This document shows, piece after piece, positions 14,685-34,582 of a stretch of 35,012 bases of DNA. Position numbers and translations under genes: made by a program. The number at the start of each line of letters is the position of its first letter. Position 1 is the first letter of the stretch. The stretch lies in IMG/VR virus record IMGVR_UViG_3300046683_000130, positions 1 through 35,012 of that record; one strand, written 5' to 3'. Origin of the DNA: a virus. The notes under the pieces were generated by a model that saw nothing but the letters and a program-made list of their open reading frames with translations, was not told where the DNA came from and ran no database searches.

Positions 14685-15229
14685 TATTTGAACCTCACCG
14701 GTTCACCGTTGCGCTTGTCGTCGGCCCGCCAGTCGCGGCCGTCATTGCCGCGCTTGACCGCCAGCCGCCAGTCAGAGCTCTTGCCCGGCTTCGCCGCGGT
14801 TTCGGTCTGCGCGATGAACAGCGAACCGCCATGGCTGACGGCATCGCCCGGAGCAAACGCCCGCTCGGACCACACTCCGGCGTCGAGCGGAATGGCGGTC
14901 TTGATCTCGTGAACCACCTCGCCGACCGTGGCCTGCAAGGTGCGCCCGCCGTCGTCAGAGGTGATGGTCATCGCCTTGAACATCTGGCCGACCTGCTCGG
15001 CAATGTAGGAACGCAGCAGCGAAAGGTCGGCGGTGTCGCGGCCGTCGCGGCCGGGCTCGCCCTTGCCGCCGGCATCGCCCGGCTCACCCTTCTCGCCGGC
15101 CGGCCCCGATGGTCCGGCCTCGCCCGCCGGCCCTGGGATCGGCTCAATCGCTTTCAGGGCATTGATCTCGGCGTCGATGTAGCTCTTGACCGCCTCGAAC
15201 CCGCGGTCGAACGCTTCCTGCAGATCCAT
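14684..15229 (-). CDS. Collagen-like virion protein
   Basis: A 181-residue protein; ATG 15229 overlaps the portal stop as TGATG (the longer frame begins with GTG 15232). After a helical N-terminus (LQEAFDRGFEAVKSYIDAEI) there are 11 uninterrupted G-X-Y triplets (residues about 33-65, starting GPAGEAGPSG). A helix and a C-terminal module (VWSERAFAPGDAVSHGGSLF then IAQTETAAKPGKSSDWRLAV) follow; the latter resembles the W..G..Y..GD.V...G..[WY].A pattern of small carbohydrate-binding (chitin-binding-like) domains. Collagen stretches usually trimerise fibres. Its place in the head module, between portal and connector, suggests a capsid- or neck-bound appendage able to touch glycans (inference). 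Confidence 0.75.
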   Translation of the reverse strand: MDLQEAFDRGFEAVKSYIDAEINALKAIEPIPGPAGEAGPSGPAGEKGEPGDAGGKGEPGRDGRDTADLSLLRSYIAEQVGQMFKAMTITSDDGGRTLQATVGEVVHEIKTAIPLDAGVWSERAFAPGDAVSHGGSLFIAQTETAAKPGKSSDWRLAVKRGNDGRDWRADDKRNGEPVRFK

Positions 15230-16605
15230 CACGCTGCCCTCGCGAACAGGTCGGTAACGCGGTCGAGGTTGATTGACTTGGCGGTGGCGGCAGCCGGATC
15301 CGGCTTCACTGCCTGATCGACCGGCTTCGGCTGTGGCGCCGCCGGCGTCTTCGACGCGAACGGATCGGCCTGCGCGTCACGCTTGGCGAGCGCGGCCAGC
15401 GAATAATTCTGCTGCTGCAGATAAGGCGACTCGCCGCCGTCGACCGGCTTCAGATTGAGCTTGTTGCGGCCCTCGTTCGGTGCCATCACGCCGGCGCCGA
15501 CCGCATCCTTGATGGCGATGATCTGGGTGACCGAGTCCATCCGCAACAGATTGTCGGTATCGAACTCGGTGCCGAGCGAACTTCCCCAGCCGATGCCGAG
15601 CGCGTAGTCGAGCAATTCCTCGATCTCCTCGATGTGCGACTGCAGCGCCTGCGAATAATATTCGACGTTGAGCGCCTGCACGTTGTTGTAGGACGGCAGC
15701 GCGCCGACGCCGACCTTGTAGGGCGGCACATGATAGACCGAGCAGACCACCTCGGCCGACCATTTCAGCGACTCGACCATCTGGCCCTCGACGTTGGTCA
15801 TCGCCATCTTTTCGTACTTGGCGCCGCCAGTCATGATGGCGACGCGGCCGAGGTTGACGCGCGAAAACCTGGTTTCCCATTGCTCCTTGAAGCGCTGCTC
15901 TTCCTCCTGGCTCACCTCGCCCGGCAGCGTCAGGATGCCGCCCGGCGTCGAGGCATTCTCGAACAGCAGCGCGCTCGCCTTCTGCGCATTCAGGCCCAGC
16001 ATCGAGGCCAGGCCGCTCGCAAACACCGGCGGCGTGCCGACCAGGGGATGAAACAGGCAGTTCATGCGGTCGTGGATGATTTCGCGGGACGGCACCGTCA
16101 TCTCGCCGACGTCGACCAGGTTGTCCGATGACAGCCGGTAGAACACCGCGCCGCCGTCGCCGACCAAAGGCTGCACCCGGTTGGGATCGAGCACATGCAG
16201 CGCGGTGACCACGTTGCGGTTGTCGCGCTGTTTCAAGACGTAGGTATTGCCGCGCGACAGTTTCGACAGCACCCAGCATTCCCAGAACTGGTTGTGGGTC
16301 TGGTAGTCGTTCGGCCGCCGCAGCACCGGCGAAAACGCCGGGTTGGTGACTTCGGTCCAGATATCGTCACTATCCTTCTCGACCAGCTTCAATCGCAGTT
16401 TGGCGATGTCGCGCGCGATCAGGGTCTTGCAGGCAAAGTCGGCATGAAAGCTCGCCGCGTTGTCGGTATTGATGATCGTGTTCTGCTGCCAGGCACCCGG
16501 ATAGCTCTCGCGGATGATCGGCCAGGTATAGCTCGAAGAGTTCACCGGCAAGGAGGACAACGCCTTCTCGCCGGTGAACGGGATCGGTAGGCCGAGGATA
16601 CGCAT
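15229..16605 (-). CDS. Portal protein, HK97 family
   Basis: A 458-residue protein with the Phage_portal pattern: YPGAWQQNTIINTDNAASFH, CKTLIARDIAKLRLKLVEKD, LRRPNDYQTHNQFWECWVLS, GNTYVLKQRDNRNVVTALHV, then DRMNCLFHPLVGTPPVFASG, LPGEVSQEEEQRFKEQWETR, and VPPYKVGVGALPSYNNVQAL near the C-terminal clip/wing. It forms the dodecameric ring through which DNA is packaged and ejected. The C-terminal about 60 residues are Ala/Pro/Lys-rich and probably disordered. ATG 16605 directly abuts the preceding stop. Confidence 0.95.
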   Translation of the reverse strand: MRILGLPIPFTGEKALSSLPVNSSSYTWPIIRESYPGAWQQNTIINTDNAASFHADFACKTLIARDIAKLRLKLVEKDSDDIWTEVTNPAFSPVLRRPNDYQTHNQFWECWVLSKLSRGNTYVLKQRDNRNVVTALHVLDPNRVQPLVGDGGAVFYRLSSDNLVDVGEMTVPSREIIHDRMNCLFHPLVGTPPVFASGLASMLGLNAQKASALLFENASTPGGILTLPGEVSQEEEQRFKEQWETRFSRVNLGRVAIMTGGAKYEKMAMTNVEGQMVESLKWSAEVVCSVYHVPPYKVGVGALPSYNNVQALNVEYYSQALQSHIEEIEELLDYALGIGWGSSLGTEFDTDNLLRMDSVTQIIAIKDAVGAGVMAPNEGRNKLNLKPVDGGESPYLQQQNYSLAALAKRDAQADPFASKTPAAPQPKPVDQAVKPDPAAATAKSINLDRVTDLFARAA

Positions 16606-16916: not shown

Positions 16917-18902
16917 CTAGTTCCAGGTCATGGTTTGGGTCCAGGCGATGACGCCGGTTCGCCTTAGGCCCCAATTGATGTCAAGCATCATCCGGATGCC
17001 GATGGTGTCCGTCTGCCACAGCGACCGGGTCGGCGTTGCCAACACGCCCGAACCCTGCGCGCCGGTGGCGATCTGCAATGGCGTGGTATCTTCCATGTGC
17101 AGCGTGGCCTGGTCCGAGACGTCGAACCGAGGCGTGTCGCCGGTCACCGAGATGAAATCCGCCGCATCGACCAAGAGCATCAGGTCGCTTGCGACGTTGG
17201 AGGACTGGATCACCGGATAGCCCTGCAGCATCCCGCGCGACAATTCGTCCTTGAACGGGAATTCGCCGCCGCCGGCGGTGGCCTGCAGCAGTGACGCCGC
17301 CAGCACGTCGCCAGGGTTCATGATCCACACCGGCGAGCGCAGATTGCCCTTGGTGCCGGTGATCAGTGCCGAGGTCAGCCCGCGGATATCGCCGATCAGC
17401 GCCGCAATGGCGCCGCCGGCGGTGGCCGTGGTGGCCGCCACGCCGTTGCGCAGCCCGGCCGGCCGGGTGGTGTCGGCCGCGGTGGCGTCGAGCAGGATCG
17501 AGTCGATCGCGACGTTGGTGTCCTCGATGATGGCCTGGCGGATCAAGGCATCGATCGCCGGCGTCGAATGCTCGGCGATGTCGCGGGTCATGGTCGAGAT
17601 CACGCCCATCTTCTTCGGCGTGAAGGAGATCGAGGCGAACGCGCCCTGGCGGACCGGAATCGGCGCGCCCTGGGCCACGAACGAGCCGGCGATGGTCGGC
17701 GTCGACGATCGCGTCGGCATCGTGACAATGCCGGCACGGCCGAACGAGAACTTGCCGCCCTTCGCCGCCAATGGCGGGTAGACCGAGTTCGGCATCAGCG
17801 CGTCGAAGAAATCCTGGATCGAGGTCACCACCAGCTTGTCGGCCCAGCCCGAGGTCACCGTATCGGCCGGGATCGCCGCCGCCTTGGTGATGACGGAGAG
17901 CACCGCGCGGGTCGGCTCGTCGTCGCCATACTCCTGCTTGAGCACCTGCAGCGGCGACTGCTTGGTGAAATGCCCTTTCACCGCGCAGACCAGCGAGCGC
18001 CAGACATAATCCTGCGGCGCGATCTTCTCGGCCGGCACCGCATAGATCGGCGAGAAGCCGCCGCGGGCAAACGAGCCTTCGGCCGCGGTCTCGGCCTTGA
18101 GCACCGGCTTGGCCGTGACCGTCTTGGTCTGTTCAAGCCGGCGCAGCCGCACCAGTTGCTTGTCGACCGCCTCGAGCTCGGTGTTCAGCGTGTCGAATTC
18201 GGTCTGCTCGGCTTCGTCCGCGGTGCGATCCTCATCGAGGCTCTTCTGCATGACGGCTTCCATGCGCGCGGCGTCAGCCGCACGCTTGGCCTCAAGCGCA
18301 GTGATCTGCTCGGCAATGGTTTTCATCTTCGTGCCCTCCGGGGCAATGGGTTGCTTTGCTCCGGAGGCGCCCGGTGGGTTCTGGGAAATGACGCCGGCAA
18401 CTTGCTGGCCTGACGCGGCCCGCTGCGCGGTGTCGATGGTATCGCAAGCGCGAACCAGAGATCGTATCGTGGTGATGGTGGCGGTCTCGTTGGCGGGGAT
18501 GGTGACGGCCGACAATTCCAGCCAGGACCATTTCTTGAAGCGAATGCCCTTGGTCTCCTTGATGAACTCATGCTCGATCGACTTGAACCCGATCGACAGC
18601 CCGGTCACCAGGCCGGCCTTGATCAGCGACCAGGCGCGGTCGATCTCGCTTGTCACGTCCTTGGCGATCTTCGCCGTGATCTCGATGCCGGCCTTGGAGA
18701 CCACCGCCGCGGTGACATGGCCGATCGGATCGCCGGCATTGTGCTGCCACAACAGCGGCAGCGGCAATTTGTACTGGGCGCCTTCCGGCTCGACCACGTC
18801 GTTCAAGCGATCCGCCGCCGGCGTCGTCGCCCAGCCGGTGATCTCGCGCGCGTCTTCGTCGACCCGCTTGATTTCAAGCAGGCTGTAGGCCCGGTTGAGC
18901 AT
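16917..18902 (-). CDS. Prohead protease-scaffold-major capsid fusion (HK97 type)
   Basis: A single 661-residue frame. Residues about 1-150 are an HK97-family (S78) prohead protease with likely triad His54 (PLLWQHNAGDPIGHV), Ser103 (VTGLSIGFKS) and Glu129 (WSWLELSAVTIP). Residues about 193-262 are a charged coiled coil acting as the scaffolding (delta) domain (KTIAEQITALEAKRAAD). From about 280 on is the HK97-fold capsid protein, with SFGRAGIVTMPTRSS, GVISTMTRDIAEHSTPAIDA, WIMNPGD and FPFKDEL. In most HK97-like phages protease and capsid are separate genes; here they are fused. A strong internal ribosome-binding site and ATG at 18326 could also produce a separate scaffold-capsid product. Confidence 0.93.
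   Translation of the reverse strand: MLNRAYSLLEIKRVDEDAREITGWATTPAADRLNDVVEPEGAQYKLPLPLLWQHNAGDPIGHVTAAVVSKAGIEITAKIAKDVTSEIDRAWSLIKAGLVTGLSIGFKSIEHEFIKETKGIRFKKWSWLELSAVTIPANETATITTIRSLVRACDTIDTAQRAASGQQVAGVISQNPPGASGAKQPIAPEGTKMKTIAEQITALEAKRAADAARMEAVMQKSLDEDRTADEAEQTEFDTLNTELEAVDKQLVRLRRLEQTKTVTAKPVLKAETAAEGSFARGGFSPIYAVPAEKIAPQDYVWRSLVCAVKGHFTKQSPLQVLKQEYGDDEPTRAVLSVITKAAAIPADTVTSGWADKLVVTSIQDFFDALMPNSVYPPLAAKGGKFSFGRAGIVTMPTRSSTPTIAGSFVAQGAPIPVRQGAFASISFTPKKMGVISTMTRDIAEHSTPAIDALIRQAIIEDTNVAIDSILLDATAADTTRPAGLRNGVAATTATAGGAIAALIGDIRGLTSALITGTKGNLRSPVWIMNPGDVLAASLLQATAGGGEFPFKDELSRGMLQGYPVIQSSNVASDLMLLVDAADFISVTGDTPRFDVSDQATLHMEDTTPLQIATGAQGSGVLATPTRSLWQTDTIGIRMMLDINWGLRRTGVIAWTQTMTWN
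18324..18339 (-). promoter_or_regulatory. Internal ribosome-binding site and start inside the protease-capsid fusion
   Basis: On the minus strand GGAGGG (18334-18339) is followed after 7 bases by ATG (18324-18326), in frame with the fusion at Met193, exactly where the scaffold coiled coil begins. Translation from it would give a 469-residue scaffold plus capsid protein. The resemblance to the nested lambda C/Nu3 arrangement is an inference. Confidence 0.7.
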
Positions 18903-19283: not shown

Positions 19284-19478
19284 TTAATCCTTAATCAGGG
19301 CATCGCAGAATTCGCAGCGCTTACGCCTGGGTTCCGGTGGCCTTGGCATCCAGAGTGTTTCGCCTCGACCGTCGCAAGCGGGACATTCGACCGTCGTGCC
19401 TATCGAGGAGGTCAGATATTTTTTGCCCTCGCAAAACCGACACTCGACGATCGGCGCGTAAATCGTGAAGTCGGTCAC
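19284..19478 (-). CDS. Small zinc-ribbon protein (DnaJ-type cysteine repeats)
   Basis: A 64-residue protein starting at GTG 19478, which overlaps the terminase stop as GTGA. Three C-x-x-C knuckles are visible: CRFCEGKKY, CPACDGRGE and CEFC. The first two resemble the CxxCxGxG zinc-binding repeats of DnaJ, so binding of one or two zinc ions is likely. Position between large terminase and the capsid module suggests a packaging or head-assembly accessory. Function not established. Confidence 0.75.
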   Translation of the reverse strand: MTDFTIYAPIVECRFCEGKKYLTSSIGTTVECPACDGRGETLWMPRPPEPRRKRCEFCDALIKD

Positions 19479-21151
19479 GCGAAGAACATCCTTACTTCCG
19501 GCCGCTTTTCCGGCACCGGGTTGAGCGCCAGTAGCGCGGTGGCGTTGAACAGCGCCATCAAGGGATCGATCTTGCCGAAGCCACTATCATCCCTGGCGAT
19601 CCGCATCCCCGTCGGCGTCGGCACGATCCGCGCGTTGCCGGCGCACCAGGCCATCAGCGCACTCCCGGCGTGCTTGAACGAGCCGTCGACCAGCTTGCGC
19701 TCCACCGTCTTGATCGCGCCCATCAGCGAGATACCCTGGCGGACACCGGCCAGCAGGTTGTTTTCCTGCGTCACCCCGATCCGCGCCAGCGCATCGACGA
19801 TGCCGCCGATCCCGATCGCATCGACGCCGACCCCGGCGAGCTTTTTCGTGGCCTTGACCTTCTCGACGATGTCGATCACGAACGAGATGTCGTCCGGCAA
19901 CTCGTCGACCACCGTGAGATCGCCGTCGCCGGTGAACCGGTCGTAGAAGCCGGCATTGGCCTTGCGCCGCTCGAGCCCTTCCGGCGAGATCAGGGCATGG
20001 GTCCAGCACAAATGCCGCTTGCTGTCCTTCTCCCGTCCGAGCACCGCGATGCCGAGCAGGTCGTCGAGCCCGCCGCCGTCGATCCCGACCACCACCGCTT
20101 CCGAGCGCTCGATCACGTCGTCCAATGTCAGCGGCGCTTCCACGCCCCGGTTCCAGTAGTTGGCGCCGGCCCAGCCATCGGCCCTTAGCGAGATGCCGAT
20201 CTGGACGTTGAAATGCTGGCTGGCGATCAGCGCCACCGCGGCCGGCCCATCCGCCTCCGCCCGCAGCACCTCGCGCGCCAGGAAGTCGGCGTTGGTCGAT
20301 CGTCCCAGGTTCGGATTGACCAGCGGCCAGTAACGGCGGTCCTTCCAGCCGTCGTCACGGTTGAGCCGTTCCGGCAACTCGTACAGCACCGGCAGCAGCG
20401 GCATTTTGGTCTTGCCGTCGCGCACGGCCCTGGCCATGGCGAGCTCGGAGGCGAACACCCCGCTCGGCTGCTGCTTCGACTGCGTCGTGGTCTGGAACAG
20501 GAACCCGTCCGGCCGTTTGGTCAGCGCACCGCGCAGTTCGATGAAGACCTCCGCGGCGTTGCCCTTCCTGGCGAATTGATGCGTCTCGTCGATCATGGTC
20601 CCGGTGGCCTTGCTGCCGGTGATGACGTCGGTGTCGGCCGCCTTGATCTGCAGCGTGGCGCGGGTTCGCAAATGCGTGATCTTCTTGAGATTGTCCTGGA
20701 CGTGAAAGATCTTCGACAGTTCCGGGTCGAGCCGGATGGTGCCCTTGGCCTGCTTGTAGGCAATCGAGGCGATTTCCATGGTCGGCGCGATGAACAGATA
20801 TTCGGCTTCCGGTCTGCGGTTAACGATCAGCGCGGTGAGCATCACCGCGCCGCCGTTGGAGCTCTTGCTGTTGCCTTTCGGGATCAACTGGAACACTTCC
20901 GAAATATGTCGGACGTTGCTGTCGGGATCGTAGGAACCGAACAGCGCCTCGACGATCGGAAAGAACCACGGACCGCAGGCAGCCTCCAGCGTCGGCGTTC
21001 CGATCACATCCGGCAACCGCAGCCGCTTGAAGCACCGCAGCGCCCGCGCCGCCTCGTTCGGAAATAGCGGTAATTGCGGGATTAACGACTTGCCGGTGAG
21101 AAGGCGTTCTTCCCAGTCCAGACAACTGGTGTCCCAGGACTTTGTCAGCAT
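19475..21151 (-). CDS. terL: Terminase large subunit (HK97-like, Terminase_1)
   Basis: A 558-residue packaging motor. The N-terminal ATPase shows a degenerate Walker A (QLIPKGNSKSS, residues about 89-98), Walker B GTMIDETH (about 184-191) and the coupling motif TTTQSKQQPSGVF. The C-terminal RNase H-like nuclease shows VVVGIDGGGLDDLLG (about 353-367), GVDAIGIGG and a final acidic motif KIDPLMALFNA. Family members cut at cos or pac sites; the Terminase_1/HK97 affinity and an upstream HNH gene favour cos. ATG 21151 overlaps the small-subunit stop (TAATG). Confidence 0.95.
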   Translation of the reverse strand: MLTKSWDTSCLDWEERLLTGKSLIPQLPLFPNEAARALRCFKRLRLPDVIGTPTLEAACGPWFFPIVEALFGSYDPDSNVRHISEVFQLIPKGNSKSSNGGAVMLTALIVNRRPEAEYLFIAPTMEIASIAYKQAKGTIRLDPELSKIFHVQDNLKKITHLRTRATLQIKAADTDVITGSKATGTMIDETHQFARKGNAAEVFIELRGALTKRPDGFLFQTTTQSKQQPSGVFASELAMARAVRDGKTKMPLLPVLYELPERLNRDDGWKDRRYWPLVNPNLGRSTNADFLAREVLRAEADGPAAVALIASQHFNVQIGISLRADGWAGANYWNRGVEAPLTLDDVIERSEAVVVGIDGGGLDDLLGIAVLGREKDSKRHLCWTHALISPEGLERRKANAGFYDRFTGDGDLTVVDELPDDISFVIDIVEKVKATKKLAGVGVDAIGIGGIVDALARIGVTQENNLLAGVRQGISLMGAIKTVERKLVDGSFKHAGSALMAWCAGNARIVPTPTGMRIARDDSGFGKIDPLMALFNATALLALNPVPEKRPEVRMFFA

Positions 21152-22133: not shown

Positions 22134-22412
22134 TTATTTGGTCTTGATCTTGAGCGTGACGGTCTGGTCCATGGTCCTTCCTTCGACGGTGTCGATCCGG
22201 TTCAGGACGTCGTAGACCGTGCCGAGCGTGCCGCTCGACAGCCAGACCGTGGTCGAGTTGTCGGTCATTTCCTCGTTATCCGCGATCAGTCCTGTCGGCA
22301 CGAACCATTGCGAGGCCGAGATGACGTCAGGGCTTGTCAGCCGTGGCGACCAGTCGATGTTGTAGTCCAGCACTTCGTCGGGATCCTTGTCGCTCCATTT
22401 GGGAAACGCCAT
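22134..22412 (-). CDS. Fibre-tail adaptor-like protein
   Basis: A 92-residue protein beginning MAFPKWSDKDPDEVLDYNID. The DPDEVLDY..DW.....D.I..S.W.VP.GL start, the TTVWLSSGTLGTVYDVLNRI segment and the GRTMDQTVTLKIK end match a common small phage beta-sandwich family placed beside tail-fibre genes and often called fibre-tail adaptor. A strong ribosome-binding site (AGAGGAGAAAG) precedes ATG 22412. The upstream fibre frame overlaps its first 86 bp. It likely helps fix the 1111-residue fibre to the tail (inference). Confidence 0.7.
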   Translation of the reverse strand: MAFPKWSDKDPDEVLDYNIDWSPRLTSPDVISASQWFVPTGLIADNEEMTDNSTTVWLSSGTLGTVYDVLNRIDTVEGRTMDQTVTLKIKTK

Positions 22413-25400
22413 GGCTTTCTCCTCTTGCCTGGATGGTTCTGAATTCCTCGATCGCCAATACGTGACGGCTTTCCGTCGCCACCTTCACCATACGGGTTTC
22501 TGCAATAGCCTTCACGCTGCGGATCTCGGCTGTTGCCGCAGCACTGCGGACCTCGGCCAATGCTTGCACGGTGCGATCGGAAATAGTCCATTCGCCGGTG
22601 AAGATCCGCGCCACATTGCCGGTGATGGCATAGCTGCCGGGTTCGGCCAGCACGGAATGCAGGCCGATCAGGTTGATGATGGCGCTCGAGCCGGTCAGTG
22701 CGTAGGCGCCAGGCGCCGCCGTGATAGTCCTGACACGTCGTACGACGGCCGGCGTGCCGCTGTAGGCATAGGCACCGCCGGTCGCGCGCACCGTCCAGCG
22801 ATACAGCACCAGCGCCGGCTTGCCGGTGAGCGTATAGCGGCCGATCAAGGGATCGGCAGTCAGCACGCGCTTTCGCGGGAAGGCAACCGCAGCGCCGGTC
22901 AATGCGTAGCTCGATGCGCCTGCCGGAACCTTGTAGCCGTAGCGGACGAGCGCCGCTGTTCCAATGAGCGCGTAACTGCCGCCGGTTGCCGTCAGCCGAT
23001 CGCGATGCAGCACCGACGCCGCGGTGCCGGCCAGCGCATAAGAGCCGGCGATCGCGGCTATGTTCCAGACATGTTGCAGCGTCGCTGGCGCGCCGGTGAG
23101 TGCATAGGATCCACTGAGCGCGGCAGGCTTCCACCCATGCAATACCGAAGCCGTCGAGCCGGTGAGCGAATAGGAGCCGACAGTCGCGGCGACTTGCCTT
23201 CCGTATCTTGGGCTCGCGGCCGTTCCGGTGACGGCATAGCTTCCAGCCAGTGCTGCCGACTTGTAGGTCCGCCGCATCGTCGCTGCGGTGCCGATGAGAA
23301 TATAATTGCCGGTGGCGGCCGAGACGAACTTGTCGGAGCGGATCGAGAACGCAACCGCGGTGCCGGTCAGTGCATAGGTGCCCGGCGCGGCGCTCAGCAG
23401 ATCCCTGTGAATGACGAACGTGGCAGCGCTGCCGGCCAGCGAATAACTCGCCGGCGTTGTCGCGACAACTTTCCAGCCGTGCCGCAGATTGGTGGTGGCC
23501 GCGCCGGTGAGACTGTAACTGCTCGAGCCGGCAATCAGCGACTTGTTGGCAAACTTCGTCACCGTCGCCGCGGTGCCGGTCAGCGCATACGAACCACTGC
23601 CGGCCACTGGTCGCCAGGCATGAAGCACGCCGGTTGCCGTGCCGGCCAGCGCATAGGATCCACCAACCGCCGCCAGCGTCTTGAAGGTGCGCTTGATGAT
23701 TGCGGCATCGGTGCCTGATAGCGCGTAACTGCTGCCGGCTGCCGGCAGTGTCTTGTTGACCAGTCCGGCGGCCTTGGTGATCGCCGCATCGGTGCCGGTC
23801 AGGGCATATGAACCGCCGAGCGCGTTCTGCCTCACCTTGTGCAGCAGGCTGGTGGTGGCAGCACCGGTCAGTGCATAGGTGCCGCCGACGGTGGCATCGA
23901 TCCGCGCCTGTTGCAGGAGATTGGTGGTCGATGCGCCGGTCAGCGCGTAAGCAGCGCCGGTGGTGGCATCGATCCTGCGCTTGAGTAGAACAGAAGTCGT
24001 GCTGGCGCCGGTCAGTGCGTAACTGCCACCGGCAGCTGTCAGCGGATGATCGACCGGCCCGGTGGTGCGAACCGTATACTCGTTGTATTTCAGCGTGCCG
24101 TTGTCGTTGACGATGTAGGGGATGACGACGGCTGTGCCGCGCGTGTAGATGTCGCCGTAGATCGACAACACCGGGTCGGTTGCACCAACTGTGCCAGTAA
24201 ACACATTGGTGGCTGTTCCCCATGTTCCGCCGTCATCCGTGGACTTCTTGACATAGAGGTCGCTATCGGTAGCGTTGCGGTATAGTGCCCATACGTCGGT
24301 GCCATCGTTGGAGAGGCGCAGAGCACCGAGGTTGGCTAGTATCGTAGCCCTCGCAAGTGTTGGTGTATTGCCGCTGTCAAACCGTATCGCAATATCGCCG
24401 TTTGAATACTCGCCCGCAACGATCTTCGTTGTCGCGGATCGCAGATAAGAAAGTCCATAGGGAGAAGCTACCAGCGAGCTTCCTATGGTGGTGACACTTT
24501 CAGTCTGCAAAACATTCGCTGAAGACAGGGTTCTTTGATACAGACTTGTCGATGCGGGCAAGGCAGACAGGAAATGAACCGCGTCCGAAGCACCAAGTAT
24601 GGCACTGGGAAAAGTTCTGTCTGCCGCAGCAGCCGCATCGACCTCGACCGCCGCAGACCATGTATTGACCGCCGTGCGCCGCGAATAATAGACGCGGGCG
24701 TAGTTGGTGCCGCTGGTCTTGGTTTGCGTGCCGTTGAAGAAAGCGACGACTTCTCCGGTAGAGCGAACAACAAGTGAAACTCCGTATTGATTTGCTCCTG
24801 TCTGACCGACCGAGTTCTGATTGATGATAATATTCTCTTTAAGAACAAATGTATCTGTAGCGGCATCGAAGGTCGCATAGAAATATGCTGGTGACGGCGG
24901 TGCATTGCCATTACTCGCACCAATAGCGATATGAATTACGTTCCCAACCTGAAATGCAGACAATTGATTGATGGCAGTCGTCAAAGCTGTAGTGAAGGCT
25001 GTTCCTGCCAGGTTAGCGATGCTCGACCATGAGGTGTCCGGCGCGGTCGCCTTGTACGCCTGCAATGTGGTGGCGGTGGTGCCGTCGCGACCGAAGAAGT
25101 AGTAGGCGTCGGGTGACGCCCCTGTAACAAGAAAATTGTAGTCGCCGGTGGCGCTGCTCCAAGTGCTGCCGTTGAAGAGGTTTCCCTTCTCTGTCGCGTT
25201 AACGTCGGTGCCCGCACCGTAAACAAGGTAGAAATTGGAGCCGTCCTGGCTGCCGGTTCTGGTCAGAATGGCCGCGTATTGCGTGCTCGGCGTCAGCGCA
25301 AACGAGGCGGCAAAGGCAAACTCTGTTCTTGTGGCGGTCGTGTTAATAGCTGAAGCCGCGACAGTCACTGATGTCGCCAGCACCGATCCTGTTACGGTCC

Positions 25401-25662
25401 CAGCCCCATCCGTGGCATAAAGGTTGACTTGCAATCCATCGGTCAGCGTGCCGCTTTTCGCCACATAGAACACGACAGAAGCAACGGAGCCGCCAGAACC
25501 TGATGTAGTGAACGACTGTCCTCTCGCATATTGAACATTGTTGCCAAAGCTCGCTCCGGTGCCGAGTCCGGTCACGATCTGGAATAGCGTGGCTGGCACC
25601 TTGAACGGCCCGACAGGTGCGACCGCCGTCGAGATGCCCGTGATGGTTACCGGGAGCGCCAT
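22327..25662 (-). CDS. Giant tail fibre with 21 GSYALTG repeats
   Basis: A 1111-residue protein; ATG 25662 has a GGCAGGGAG site and overlaps the YkgJ gene by 16 bp. Residues about 1-180 form a beta-rich domain (GASFGNNVQYARGQSFTTSG) resembling choice-of-anchor-type sandwiches. About 180-540 looks like a beta-propeller, with STDDGGTWG as an Asp-box. About 541-1030 carry 21 repeats of 22-24 residues with core GSYALTGTAA. About 1030-1085 carry six 9-residue repeats of the A.AE.R.V type. The last 28 residues overlap the next gene out of frame and may be an accident of a missed stop or frameshift. Host recognition is the likely role, with the repeats acting as a stalk. Confidence 0.8.
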   Translation of the reverse strand: MALPVTITGISTAVAPVGPFKVPATLFQIVTGLGTGASFGNNVQYARGQSFTTSGSGGSVASVVFYVAKSGTLTDGLQVNLYATDGAGTVTGSVLATSVTVAASAINTTATRTEFAFAASFALTPSTQYAAILTRTGSQDGSNFYLVYGAGTDVNATEKGNLFNGSTWSSATGDYNFLVTGASPDAYYFFGRDGTTATTLQAYKATAPDTSWSSIANLAGTAFTTALTTAINQLSAFQVGNVIHIAIGASNGNAPPSPAYFYATFDAATDTFVLKENIIINQNSVGQTGANQYGVSLVVRSTGEVVAFFNGTQTKTSGTNYARVYYSRRTAVNTWSAAVEVDAAAAADRTFPSAILGASDAVHFLSALPASTSLYQRTLSSANVLQTESVTTIGSSLVASPYGLSYLRSATTKIVAGEYSNGDIAIRFDSGNTPTLARATILANLGALRLSNDGTDVWALYRNATDSDLYVKKSTDDGGTWGTATNVFTGTVGATDPVLSIYGDIYTRGTAVVIPYIVNDNGTLKYNEYTVRTTGPVDHPLTAAGGSYALTGASTTSVLLKRRIDATTGAAYALTGASTTNLLQQARIDATVGGTYALTGAATTSLLHKVRQNALGGSYALTGTDAAITKAAGLVNKTLPAAGSSYALSGTDAAIIKRTFKTLAAVGGSYALAGTATGVLHAWRPVAGSGSYALTGTAATVTKFANKSLIAGSSSYSLTGAATTNLRHGWKVVATTPASYSLAGSAATFVIHRDLLSAAPGTYALTGTAVAFSIRSDKFVSAATGNYILIGTAATMRRTYKSAALAGSYAVTGTAASPRYGRQVAATVGSYSLTGSTASVLHGWKPAALSGSYALTGAPATLQHVWNIAAIAGSYALAGTAASVLHRDRLTATGGSYALIGTAALVRYGYKVPAGASSYALTGAAVAFPRKRVLTADPLIGRYTLTGKPALVLYRWTVRATGGAYAYSGTPAVVRRVRTITAAPGAYALTGSSAIINLIGLHSVLAEPGSYAITGNVARIFTGEWTISDRTVQALAEVRSAAATAEIRSVKAIAETRMVKVATESRHVLAIEEFRTIQARGESHGVSQMERQGSRRSAGLQHRLVATADKP
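22570..24040 (-). repeat. Array of 21 coding repeats (about 69 bp each)
   Basis: In-frame degenerate repeats of 22-24 codons, each with [GA]-[GS]-x-Y-[AS]-[LIV]-[TAS]-G and a variable, often basic, second half (for example LHAWRPV, LHGWKPA). Boundaries are approximate. Regular spacing superficially resembles a CRISPR array, but the repeats are coding and diverged. Three related repeats occur at about 2500-2715. Confidence 0.85.
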
Positions 25663-31351: not shown

Positions 31352-31567
31352 TTTGGCCCTCGTTTTCGAGGGCAGTTGGCGCGGGTTTCTTAGACACTCG
31401 CTTGAAAACCTTTGACGCCTCAATGGTCCGTTGCGACCGTTTAGACAGGCCAAGTCATTGATTTCTCAAGTAAGTGTGACTTCCTCCGCGCTCACCACCC
31501 TTGGTTTTTGCCTTTGATATTGTTCACTTATTTCGCCGATTGTCTAAGCGGCCCGGCGATTTAGACA
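31352..31567. promoter_or_regulatory. Candidate attP/regulatory region with four TTAGACA sites
   Basis: The heptamer TTAGACA occurs directly at 31390-31396, 31442-31448 and 31561-31567 and inverted at 31541-31547 (TGTCTAA); two copies are part of a longer TTTAGACAG. AAGTCA (31453-31458) and TGACTT (31478-31483) form an inverted pair around TTGATTTCTCAA. On the minus strand TTGAGA (31465-31470) and TCTAAA (31441-31446), spacer 18, form a possible promoter overlapping one repeat. Both integrase arm-sites near attP and operators fit. 31352-31523 contains no gene. Confidence 0.55.
31356..31373 (-). promoter_or_regulatory. Hairpin sequestering the methyltransferase ribosome-binding site
   Basis: On the minus strand GCCCTCGAAAACGAGGGC forms a perfect 7-bp stem with a 4-base AAAA loop. 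The 3' arm contains the likely Shine-Dalgarno GAGGG, five bases before ATG 31351. In the transcript this stem would hide the ribosome-binding site. A translational switch, or a binding site for a regulator, is inferred. Confidence 0.6.
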
Positions 31568-32657
31568 GTGCCGCGTTTGCGTTTCGTACCGCCTCGAACC
31601 TGGTCGAGGTCTCGATCCCGACCTTCTGGCGATCATATTCCTCGATGTAGCGCTGGATCTCGCGCAGGTCCTTGTGGCCGCTCAAAGCCCCGATCTGCGG
31701 CGCGGTGTAGCCGGCGTGCACCAGCCGGACCATGAACAGTTTTCGCAGGCCGTGGCTGGTGCAATCCGGTAAGCCCGCCTCGTCGCACCATTGCCGCATC
31801 TTGTTGCCGAACCCGTTGGCCGACCAAGGCTGGCCATTCGAGGTCACCAGATAGGTTTCGGTCGAGGTCACCGGGGTCGCTGCGATCGCCGCCTTGGTCT
31901 GCTCGAACAGCTTGACCGAAATCCGCTTGCCGCCAGTGGTCGAGGTTTTCTTCGGCAGGAAATTGTGCAGTACGCCGTCGCGGACATAGGGCGGCCCGAT
32001 CCGCACCACGTCGCTCTTGCGGACGCCTAAATTCAGGTAGAGCTCGAACGCCAGCCGCGCCATCGAGCCGACCTTGTGCCGTGCCTCGAAGGCGGCGGCA
32101 TCCTCCTCGGTCCAGGTATGGAACCCGCCGGTGTCCTTCATCTTGGCCCGCGTCACGCCTTCGGTCGGATCCTGCTCGAGCAGGCCGGCCGCCGCGGCGA
32201 ACCTGCAAAGGTGGCGCAGCGCGCGCAGCATGTTGCGTTGAACGGATGGCGACTTGAGGCTCGCGATGTAGGCCTGCACCTCGCGCCGGCCGAGCCCGCG
32301 CAATTTGAGCGAACCGACCTCGGCGCGAAACCGCTCGATCAGCGCGCGCGCCGGTCCGCGGGTTGCGACCGCGAGCTCGGCGAACAGCGGCGACTTGTAA
32401 TAGGCCACGATCGCGGCATCGACCGTACCCGTCATGGTGCGCGATGCGCCGATCGCCGGCGCCTGGCCGCGCCAGGCTTTCAGCGCCGCTTCGTGCGCCG
32501 CCATGAATTCCGGCGACCAGGGCAGGCCGGGCAGACGCACGGCTTCACCGAGCCGGAAATAGAAATACGGCCGATCACCGATGGTGTAGGCTTTGACGTG
32601 TTTGGGAAGTCTTCCTATTCGGCCTTCTCTTCCCACTCTTTGCGCTTGGCTTGCCAT
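31524..32657 (-). CDS. int: Tyrosine recombinase/integrase
   Basis: A 377-residue protein. The N-terminal part is an arm/core-binding region (VDAAIVAYYKSPLFAELA, SVQRNMLRALRHLCRFAAAA). The catalytic domain shows Arg213 (LNLGVRKSDVVRI), lysine in FLPKKTSTTGGKR, His302/Arg305 (SHGLRKLFM), His328 (LSGHKD) and nucleophile Tyr337 (IQRYIEEYD). It catalyses integration and excision, marking the phage as temperate. The start at 32657 overlaps the upstream ORF by 43 bp; GTG 32636 is an alternative. The C-terminal codons contain two TTAGACA sites. No excisionase was recognised. Confidence 0.93.
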   Translation of the reverse strand: MASQAQRVGREGRIGRLPKHVKAYTIGDRPYFYFRLGEAVRLPGLPWSPEFMAAHEAALKAWRGQAPAIGASRTMTGTVDAAIVAYYKSPLFAELAVATRGPARALIERFRAEVGSLKLRGLGRREVQAYIASLKSPSVQRNMLRALRHLCRFAAAAGLLEQDPTEGVTRAKMKDTGGFHTWTEEDAAAFEARHKVGSMARLAFELYLNLGVRKSDVVRIGPPYVRDGVLHNFLPKKTSTTGGKRISVKLFEQTKAAIAATPVTSTETYLVTSNGQPWSANGFGNKMRQWCDEAGLPDCTSHGLRKLFMVRLVHAGYTAPQIGALSGHKDLREIQRYIEEYDRQKVGIETSTRFEAVRNANAALSKSPGRLDNRRNK

Positions 32658-32830
32658 TCTTCGTCATCCCCCTTGTCGAAATCCGGATCGCATCCCGGCG
32701 CCCCCATCTGAACCGTGATTTTCCCTTCTTTGTCAATTTCCAGGGTCTTGATCGACAAGCCCGCCTCCCTGGCCCCGCGCAGCGCCTGAACCAGGTCTCT
32801 CGTTCGATATGTCAAAGGCTTAGGTGCCAT
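32615..32830 (-). CDS. Small protein between RecT and integrase
   Basis: A 71-residue protein (MAPKPLTYRTRDLVQALRGA, then REAGLSIKTLEIDKEGKITV, ending in an acidic/basic helix DDEEWQAKRKEWEEKAE). ATG 32830 overlaps the RecT end by 11 bp. The helix-strand-strand start followed by a charged helix resembles small accessory ORFs beside recombination genes in alphaproteobacterial phages. Function unknown. Confidence 0.7.
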   Translation of the reverse strand: MAPKPLTYRTRDLVQALRGAREAGLSIKTLEIDKEGKITVQMGAPGCDPDFDKGDDEEWQAKRKEWEEKAE

Positions 32831-33656
32831 GGCTGGCTGTCTCCTTCTCCCCGATATGCTCGATCAGGTCGCCCTGATTTTCGTCGATGTCGGATTCCGA
32901 TACCGCCTTGCCTTCCGGTAGCGACGCAATCATGTTGAGCGCGTCGGTGAGACTTCGCGAAGGTGGTGGCTGGATCGCAGATCCAGTGCCGCCTTCGTTT
33001 TCTTCGTCGTCCCGGCGCAACAGATCGTCCAGGTCCGAGCTCATCGGCAAAACTTTCGCGTGCCGTTTCGCCACGGTCTTTTTCGCCATCTCGCCATAGA
33101 AGGTTTTCCAGGGTCCACCATCGCCGGCCTTGCTCTGCATGCGGATCGCCTCGATCTCGTCGATCGACATCACCTCGCGGCTTTTCTCGCCGGTCTTGAG
33201 CGTCGCGATCGAATAGGCGGCGATGATCTTGCCGCGGTCGCCGCGCAGCATCGGCCGGTGGTCGATGTGCGGATCGTCGCCCAACTGGTAGTCGAAGAAG
33301 TCCTTTTCATGCACGGTGTTGACTTCCCAGGTCGCGACCTCGCCGGAGTTGCGCACCTTCTGCCGGATGCCGGCGATCATCGGCAGCCATTGCGCGATCG
33401 ATCCGCGCCGCTTGTCGCGGTAGACCACCAGCGCCCCGAGCCGGCCATCGGGCAGCAGCCCGTCCTGAGCCGCCTTCATCGCCGCGTTCCATAAGGACCG
33501 CCGCTCGACGTTGAGCAGTTCCGGGTTGGTCTGCACCGCCGTGAGCACGACGCGGCCGAACCGCTCCACCGGGATATGCTTGGGCAGCACGGCGGCGAAC
33601 TGCCCGACCATCGTGTCGAGCTGCAGACGGATTTCAGCGACAGCGTTCTTGTTCAT
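32820..33656 (-). CDS. recT: RecT-family single-strand annealing protein
   Basis: A 278-residue protein from ATG 33656, coupled to the exonuclease stop (ATGA). RecT motifs are present: MVGQFAAVLPKHIPVERFGR, LLNVERRSLWNAAMKAAQDG, LLPDGRLGALVVYRDKRRGS, AQWLPMIAGIRQKVRNSGEV, then DFFDYQLGDDPHIDH and WKTFYGEMAKKTVAKRHAKV. The tail is acidic and disordered. It anneals ssDNA left by the partner exonuclease during phage recombination and replication. Confidence 0.93.
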   Translation of the reverse strand: MNKNAVAEIRLQLDTMVGQFAAVLPKHIPVERFGRVVLTAVQTNPELLNVERRSLWNAAMKAAQDGLLPDGRLGALVVYRDKRRGSIAQWLPMIAGIRQKVRNSGEVATWEVNTVHEKDFFDYQLGDDPHIDHRPMLRGDRGKIIAAYSIATLKTGEKSREVMSIDEIEAIRMQSKAGDGGPWKTFYGEMAKKTVAKRHAKVLPMSSDLDDLLRRDDEENEGGTGSAIQPPPSRSLTDALNMIASLPEGKAVSESDIDENQGDLIEHIGEKETASHGT

Positions 33657-34582
33657 GCGGCCCGCTCCCTCTCCTGTTTGATCCGCAACGGCCGCCGCGT
33701 GCTCTCGGCCACCTGGTAGGCCTTGCGATGTTCGGTCTTCGCGGTGATCACGCCGCCGGCGTACCGCGCTTTGGCGGCGTTGCCGAGCCGGTGCAGGATT
33801 TTTGCCTGCGCTTCCTCGATGCCGTCCTCGGCGGTCGATCGCGCGTGTTTCAGCGCCTGCAATTGGTCGACGATTTCCGGCAATTCGTTGTCCGACGTCA
33901 GGTCGATCTCGCCACCGTCGTCCTCGGCGAATACCTTGGTGATGGTCCGGTAATCCTGGCCATAGTCCGGCGCCGGCAGATGGCCCATGTCGATCATCTG
34001 CCAGAACATGAAGACCTTTTCCCGCGCTTCCGCGATCACCTTGGGCAAATAGGGCACCTCGACCACCTCGAGCGACAGTCCCCAATCGTCGACCACCAAT
34101 GCCGCAATGACGGCGAATTCCGAACCGGTCAGGTGCATCTCGCTCATCGCCTGCAGCGCGATCCACAGCGGCGGCACGACGGTGCCGGCATCGCCGTGCC
34201 ATTTCCGCGCGAACACCGATGGCGCCACCGTCTTGATCTGGCAGATGCCGACCCGGCCGAGCTCGTCCTTGACGAACAGGTCCGGCGTGGCGCCGAACCG
34301 GATTTCCTCGTCGGCGTAATAGGATCCGGCCGCGATCTGTACCAGGTCCTGGCGTTCCTCGGCCAACAGTTGCCGCGCCACCGGTTCGAGCAACCGGCCG
34401 CGCTGTAATATTTTGTTGTCGATCACATCAGGCAATTTGCCGAGCTTGCGCGCGGCCAGCGCAAACCCGGTCAGATAGTCGTGGATCCCGAACAGCGCGG
34501 CGACCTCCGAGCAGCCGACATTCTTGCGACGCATCGCTTGCCACTGTTCCGCCGATGTGATCGGTGTCACTTTGATCGCCAC
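33653..34582 (-). CDS. YqaJ-type viral exonuclease (lambda exonuclease family)
   Basis: A 309-residue protein if started at GTG 34582; TTG 34594 would add four residues and no ATG is near. The YqaJ fold motifs are visible: AMRRKNVGCSEVAALFGIHD, then LQRGRLLEPVARQLLAEERQ with the catalytic Glu, FGATPDLFVKDELGRVGICQ, IKTVAPS (the D...Q-I-K nuclease core) and PPLWIALQAMSEMHLTGSEF. It degrades one strand of dsDNA ends, feeding RecT. First gene of the early minus operon, divergent from gcrA. Confidence 0.92.
   Translation of the reverse strand: MAIKVTPITSAEQWQAMRRKNVGCSEVAALFGIHDYLTGFALAARKLGKLPDVIDNKILQRGRLLEPVARQLLAEERQDLVQIAAGSYYADEEIRFGATPDLFVKDELGRVGICQIKTVAPSVFARKWHGDAGTVVPPLWIALQAMSEMHLTGSEFAVIAALVVDDWGLSLEVVEVPYLPKVIAEAREKVFMFWQMIDMGHLPAPDYGQDYRTITKVFAEDDGGEIDLTSDNELPEIVDQLQALKHARSTAEDGIEEAQAKILHRLGNAAKARYAGGVITAKTEHRKAYQVAESTRRPLRIKQERERAA

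Follow-up and report, generated by a model that had tools for sequence, protein, structure and literature searches.

The window, by which we mean the whole 35,012-nt stretch of viral DNA analysed (IMG/VR record IMGVR_UViG_3300046683_000130, positions 1 to 35,012), carries on its minus strand one gene that very probably gives rise to two in-frame products. The longer would comprise a prohead protease, a delta domain and a major capsid protein; the shorter would comprise the delta domain and capsid only, starting at Met193, and the two would co-assemble. Comparative sequence evidence strongly favours initiation at Met193, and the strength of the internal Shine-Dalgarno (SD) sequence suggests that few protease-tagged subunits would be made alongside many plain ones.

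Domain organization of the fused gene

The fused open reading frame (ORF) encodes 661 residues (positions 16917..18902, minus strand). Its translation matches PHROG_617, a family of major head proteins that includes protease-capsid fusions, over almost its entire length (residues 2–660 on profile positions 9–626 of 626, E = 2.6e-110). A sequence-only reading of this DNA had proposed that a single frame holds an S78-type protease with catalytic residues His54, Ser103 and Glu129, a coiled-coil scaffold and an HK97 capsid. The protease is confirmed: Peptidase_S78 (Pfam PF04586) matches residues 43–147 with 48.4 bits against a gathering cut-off of 21, and all three residues are invariant across 46 aligned sequences of relatives. 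The narrower protease equivalog TIGR01543 scores 49.9, under its cut-off of 59. In the AlphaFold model, the protease domain spans about residues 8–138 (18489..18881, minus strand), with pLDDT mostly about 80–92. The capsid assignment likewise holds, with TIGR01554 (HK97 capsid) matching residues 204–583 from profile position 2 with 43.8 bits against a cut-off of 27.5. The HK97-fold domain, about residues 292–661 (16920..18029, minus strand), matches the R4C, Bxb1 and HK97 capsids in Foldseek searches, with E-values down to 5.8e-14. NCBIfam NF045541, the family of prohead protease and major capsid protein fusions, reaches only 62.9 bits over residues 48–257 against a cut-off of 525; the window gene is of the same kind as those fusions and belongs to another branch.

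Between the two folded domains, the model shows two stretches with pLDDT below 50, at residues 139–193 and about 263–291. The first corresponds to a disordered, fast-evolving linker (residues 139–192; 18327..18488, minus strand), which differs between relatives by indels and substitutions and contains the internal SD. The second lies between the delta helices and the capsid, and residues 264–291 (18030..18113, minus strand) are a probable maturation cleavage region. The part that had been called a coiled-coil scaffold is indeed helical and scaffold-like, consisting of two long helices (residues 196–223 and 230–263). It is, however, the delta domain (residues 193–263; 18114..18326, minus strand) that opens ordinary HK97-type capsid precursors, so that the nested product would be a normal capsid precursor. 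The limits of the low-pLDDT stretch and of the helices place Met193 at the end of the linker, directly before the delta domain. From Met193 onwards, the nested frame encodes a putative capsid precursor of 469 residues (16917..18326, minus strand), delimited by the start of the TIGR01554 match and by alignment to the solved 385-residue capsid protein 9gyi_B, whose residue 3 falls at family-profile position 194, equivalent to about Gln199.

The fused gene has a TerL gene upstream (19475–21151) and a portal gene downstream (15229–16605). Between TerL and the capsid gene is a 64-residue, Cys-rich, zinc-ribbon-like ORF (19284–19478, minus strand; DUF5351 match below cut-off). A 1111-residue ORF at 22327–25662 (minus strand) contains many imperfect 'GSYALTGTAA'-like repeats with no Pfam match, and may be a tail protein or a structural repeat protein. 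The window probably comes from a temperate phage, since it carries phage integrase and RecT genes (31524–32657 and 32820–34202, minus strand).

The internal start signal and its conservation

The internal SD, GGAGGG (18334..18339, minus strand), is followed by a 7-nt spacer (18333–18327) and an in-frame ATG at codon 193 (18324..18326, minus strand), exactly as the sequence-only reading described, and the signal sits at the linker/delta boundary, where the protease/scaffold junction had been drawn. Its predicted strength is also borne out. Specifically, the SD energy at codon 193 is −10.0 kcal/mol, the strongest among all in-frame ATG, GTG and TTG codons of the gene, compared with −5.9 kcal/mol at the full-length start at 18902, and an equally strong upstream sequence is found at just 0.5% of the other codon positions. 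Local RNA structure at the internal start of the window is unremarkable (z = 0.19).

Relatives were gathered from IMG/VR, GTDB genomes, phages and plasmids, giving 213 sequences including the window; 174 of these, the window among them, are fused, and 27 are in two ORFs. In a contig scan, the single window protein as query retrieved no relative, while the alignment as query retrieved 80 loci. A related fusion is present in 1245 of 5426 complete E. coli genomes. Four loci (L034, L037, L038 and L041) combine a window-like protease and linker with a PAJU2-like capsid domain, as checked by alignment in L034, and a further group (L148–L167, L170, L174, L178, L180 and L207) probably does likewise. 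By their sequences, we read genes of the L034 type as domain swaps within the fused gene that retain the internal start.

The junction codon is a start codon in all 174 fused genes, being ATG in 168 and GTG in six, which fall in about four lineages. At two other conserved Met columns, by comparison, Met has mostly given way to codons for Thr, Ala, Leu and Glu, and GTG occurs once. GGAGG is kept in 33/33 of the closest relatives despite changes in peptide and spacing, so the loss of the internal SD from close relatives that keep the fusion, named by the sequence-only reading as evidence against internal initiation, is not observed. Among all 174 fused genes, 79 have GGAGG and most others have AAGGA, AAGGG or AGGAG; about 17 have just GAAAG or none of these SD cores before the conserved ATG (for example L062, L157 and L185). 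Across 114 lineages below 80% identity, treated as independent, junction SD strength lies at the median 7th percentile of positions in the same gene (KS p about 1e-43). Together with the start codon in 174/174 genes, this leads us to reject a chance origin of the junction SD. Of the 160 genes compared, 97 have a stronger SD at the internal than at the full-length start and 52 a weaker one, so that the low number of protease copies cannot be called universal; in E. coli JLK-2012-type genes, for instance, the full-length start carries the stronger SD.

Two further features accompany the start. Where codon +2 encodes Lys, 28 of 41 lineages use AAA, the figure elsewhere in those genes being 22%. 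Across genes, the window itself excepted, folding around the start is weaker than the average over the gene. An SD-like sequence at a domain boundary could instead act as a pause, slowing ribosomes so that the protease folds before the delta domain is synthesized, and intragenic SD-like sequences have been proposed to slow ribosomes. A pause, however, requires neither an A-rich second codon nor a start codon with constant spacing, and it leaves unexplained why GTG alone substitutes for the junction Met and why separate capsid genes begin at this point; we consider this account extremely unlikely. A conserved ATGA overlap, through which frameshifting would make a free protease, was judged unsupported: the +2 residue varies among A, V, Q, D, G, K, N, T and S, and the out-of-frame TGA is therefore not conserved.

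Nucleotide constraint and split relatives

In a tree built from 63 close relatives, ordinary codons show a median of 15 third-base changes. The junction Glu codon, Glu189, shows none, whereas other conserved Glu columns have 10–16, and it is alone in having no third-base change among 603 columns other than Met and Trp. The codon before it has undergone 18 amino-acid changes (among Gln, Leu, Pro, Lys and Glu) and no third-base change. The sequence-only reading had suggested comparing the conservation of GGAGGG and ATG with that of third codon positions, and the outcome is clearly positive, the SD codons being without third-base change.

Such a pattern could in principle follow from the protein, if the peptide [P/Q/L/K/E]-E-[G/D]...M were a recognition or cleavage site of the protease and the nucleotides merely followed it; the E[GD] dipeptide is frequent in the close family. 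The spelling of the motif points elsewhere. An xE[G/D] motif is written xxG-GAG-G in 74 of 75 cases at the junction, compared with 86 of 923 (9%) elsewhere in the same ORFs, and the third bases stay fixed through 18 changes of the preceding amino acid. Other lineages form an SD through other peptides (KGG, KG, KE, KD and RG). Enterobacterial fusions encode KG, KE or KD here, always through AAGGA or AAGGGA, and one copy with QG has AAGGA too. The E. coli copies differ at nine positions clustered in the linker, with CATAAGGAAAAG and the ATG unaltered among them. The junction Met, moreover, is replaced by GTG only. Synonymous and start-codon constraint of this sort is predicted by an internal initiation site and not by protein constraint, which we regard as a next to negligible explanation. 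Judged from sequence, the third-base, start-codon, codon +2 and folding features are together the marks of an initiation region.

In two-ORF relatives, the separate capsid ORF begins at the very motif found at the fused junction, with its start on the equivalent residue (MKTIAEQIKDMEAT, MNIAEQIRAFEEKR, MATYAEQIAAYEAT and others), and the Met193 product would thus equal a complete, ordinary capsid precursor. Fused and split genes are intermingled on the capsid tree, which shows at least 14 switches between the two states, some of which may be sequencing errors. In Stenotrophomonas phage SOVA965 (L049 1201–3286), a separate protease is followed by a capsid gene whose annotation consists of two overlapping coding sequences, possibly reflecting a frameshift or a sequencing error.

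The existence of separate protease and capsid genes in split relatives makes it conceivable that the internal SD and ATG are a relic of a once separate capsid gene, with all subunits made full length and the protease excising itself. Fusions of the PAJU2 type have in fact been proposed to be autocatalytically cleaved polyproteins, in a passage of PMC8306868 that cites Uchiyama 2009. A relic would be expected to decay, and no decay is seen: the SD codons have no third-base change, compared with the median of 15 for ordinary codons, and the start codon has never been lost in 174 fused genes. We therefore reject the relic, and hold the polyprotein-only account to be highly unlikely.

We favour the model in which one gene supplies both subunits. 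Ribosomes initiating at 18902 would make the full-length protease-delta-capsid protein, while those initiating at the internal SD and the ATG at 18326 would yield a delta-capsid precursor of the standard kind. The two products would co-assemble through their common delta and capsid domains, and the minority full-length subunit would thereby bring the protease into the procapsid covalently. The protease would then remove the delta domains and itself by cleavage at putative sites.

Comparison with known systems

That proteases and capsid proteins can be fused is already known, from PAJU2, MD8, NF045541 and the actinophages, for which the annotation 'major capsid and protease fusion protein' exists. 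The open-access literature searched contains no report of an internal or conserved nested capsid start in such fusions, and the passages of PMC8306868 and PMC8508860 that deal with them do not mention one. Fusions are common, and the copies examined carry one annotation, 'phage major capsid protein'. Should the nested start be in use, this annotation would miss the main structural product, the 'autocleaving polyprotein' model would be wrong or incomplete, and protease dosing in the procapsid would become a one-gene question.

Comparable junctions occur in some other fused families. At the junction, a purine-rich, SD-like stretch (for example AAAGGAG, GAGGA, GAGAGGA, GAAAGGA or AGGAGGA) comes before an ATG in the lactococcal c2, 50102, Q54, GE1, ACM616_1 and Nocturne116 fusions, and also in the fusions of Microbacterium cluster EE phages. 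The c2-, Q54- and GE1-type lactococcal genes (L229, L233, L228, L230, L231 and L214) form a separate fused family, in which c2 has AAAGGAG at M131. Less clear-cut is Gordonia EricDab, where the ATG immediately past the protease has an SD of low strength (−3.5). In MD8 gp5, protease, scaffold and capsid lie within one gene, according to PMC8508860. The MD8 and F10 gp5 proteins are modelled on ClpP- and lambda-type proteases, unlike the S78 protease of the window, and the F10 junction start is unlike the clear one in the window. Specifically, no SD was found at the F10 junction, Met214; the strongest internal SD of this gene (L215 4387–6468), a very strong AAGGAGGAG, precedes Met185, inside the protease domain. 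Fusions of the F10/MD8 type were for this reason set aside as support for a nested start.

Whether S78-protease/capsid fusions in general are dual-product genes with a nested capsid start is, in our view, evenly poised. Under such a rule, the translation ratio would set the protease dose of the procapsid through protease-bearing lattice subunits, and genes could move freely between fusion and fission, both states being functional thanks to the nested start.

A close known parallel is ORF003 of Pseudomonas phage PAJU2, which is fused, is homologous to the window gene over its whole length (35% identity), and carries the same internal AGGAGGG and ATG, at codon 197. Its record bears the note 'prohead protease fused capsid protein', and, as with RefSeq 'phage major capsid protein' fusions, it is annotated as a single polyprotein or one coding sequence with no second start. 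HK97 gp4 (protease) and gp5 (delta-capsid) have the same order of parts as the window gene, with an S78 protease, a delta domain and the HK97 fold; they are separate genes, whereas the window has one frame with no stop between the parts and with the capsid start kept inside.

In phage lambda, the C/Nu3 pair provides a nested, in-frame scaffold start within a protease-scaffold gene. The sequence pattern that marks such an arrangement, a conserved in-frame internal SD and start codon at a domain boundary, is present in the window gene. Like lambda C/Nu3, the window gene would give a long protease form and a short protease-less form in one frame by internal initiation, here predicted from sequence, and the shared C-terminal part would bring the protease into the procapsid. 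The two systems differ in that lambda C is an S49-type protease whereas that of the window is S78, and in that the short lambda product is a separate scaffold, with capsid gene E encoded apart, whereas the short product of the window gene would be the capsid precursor itself.
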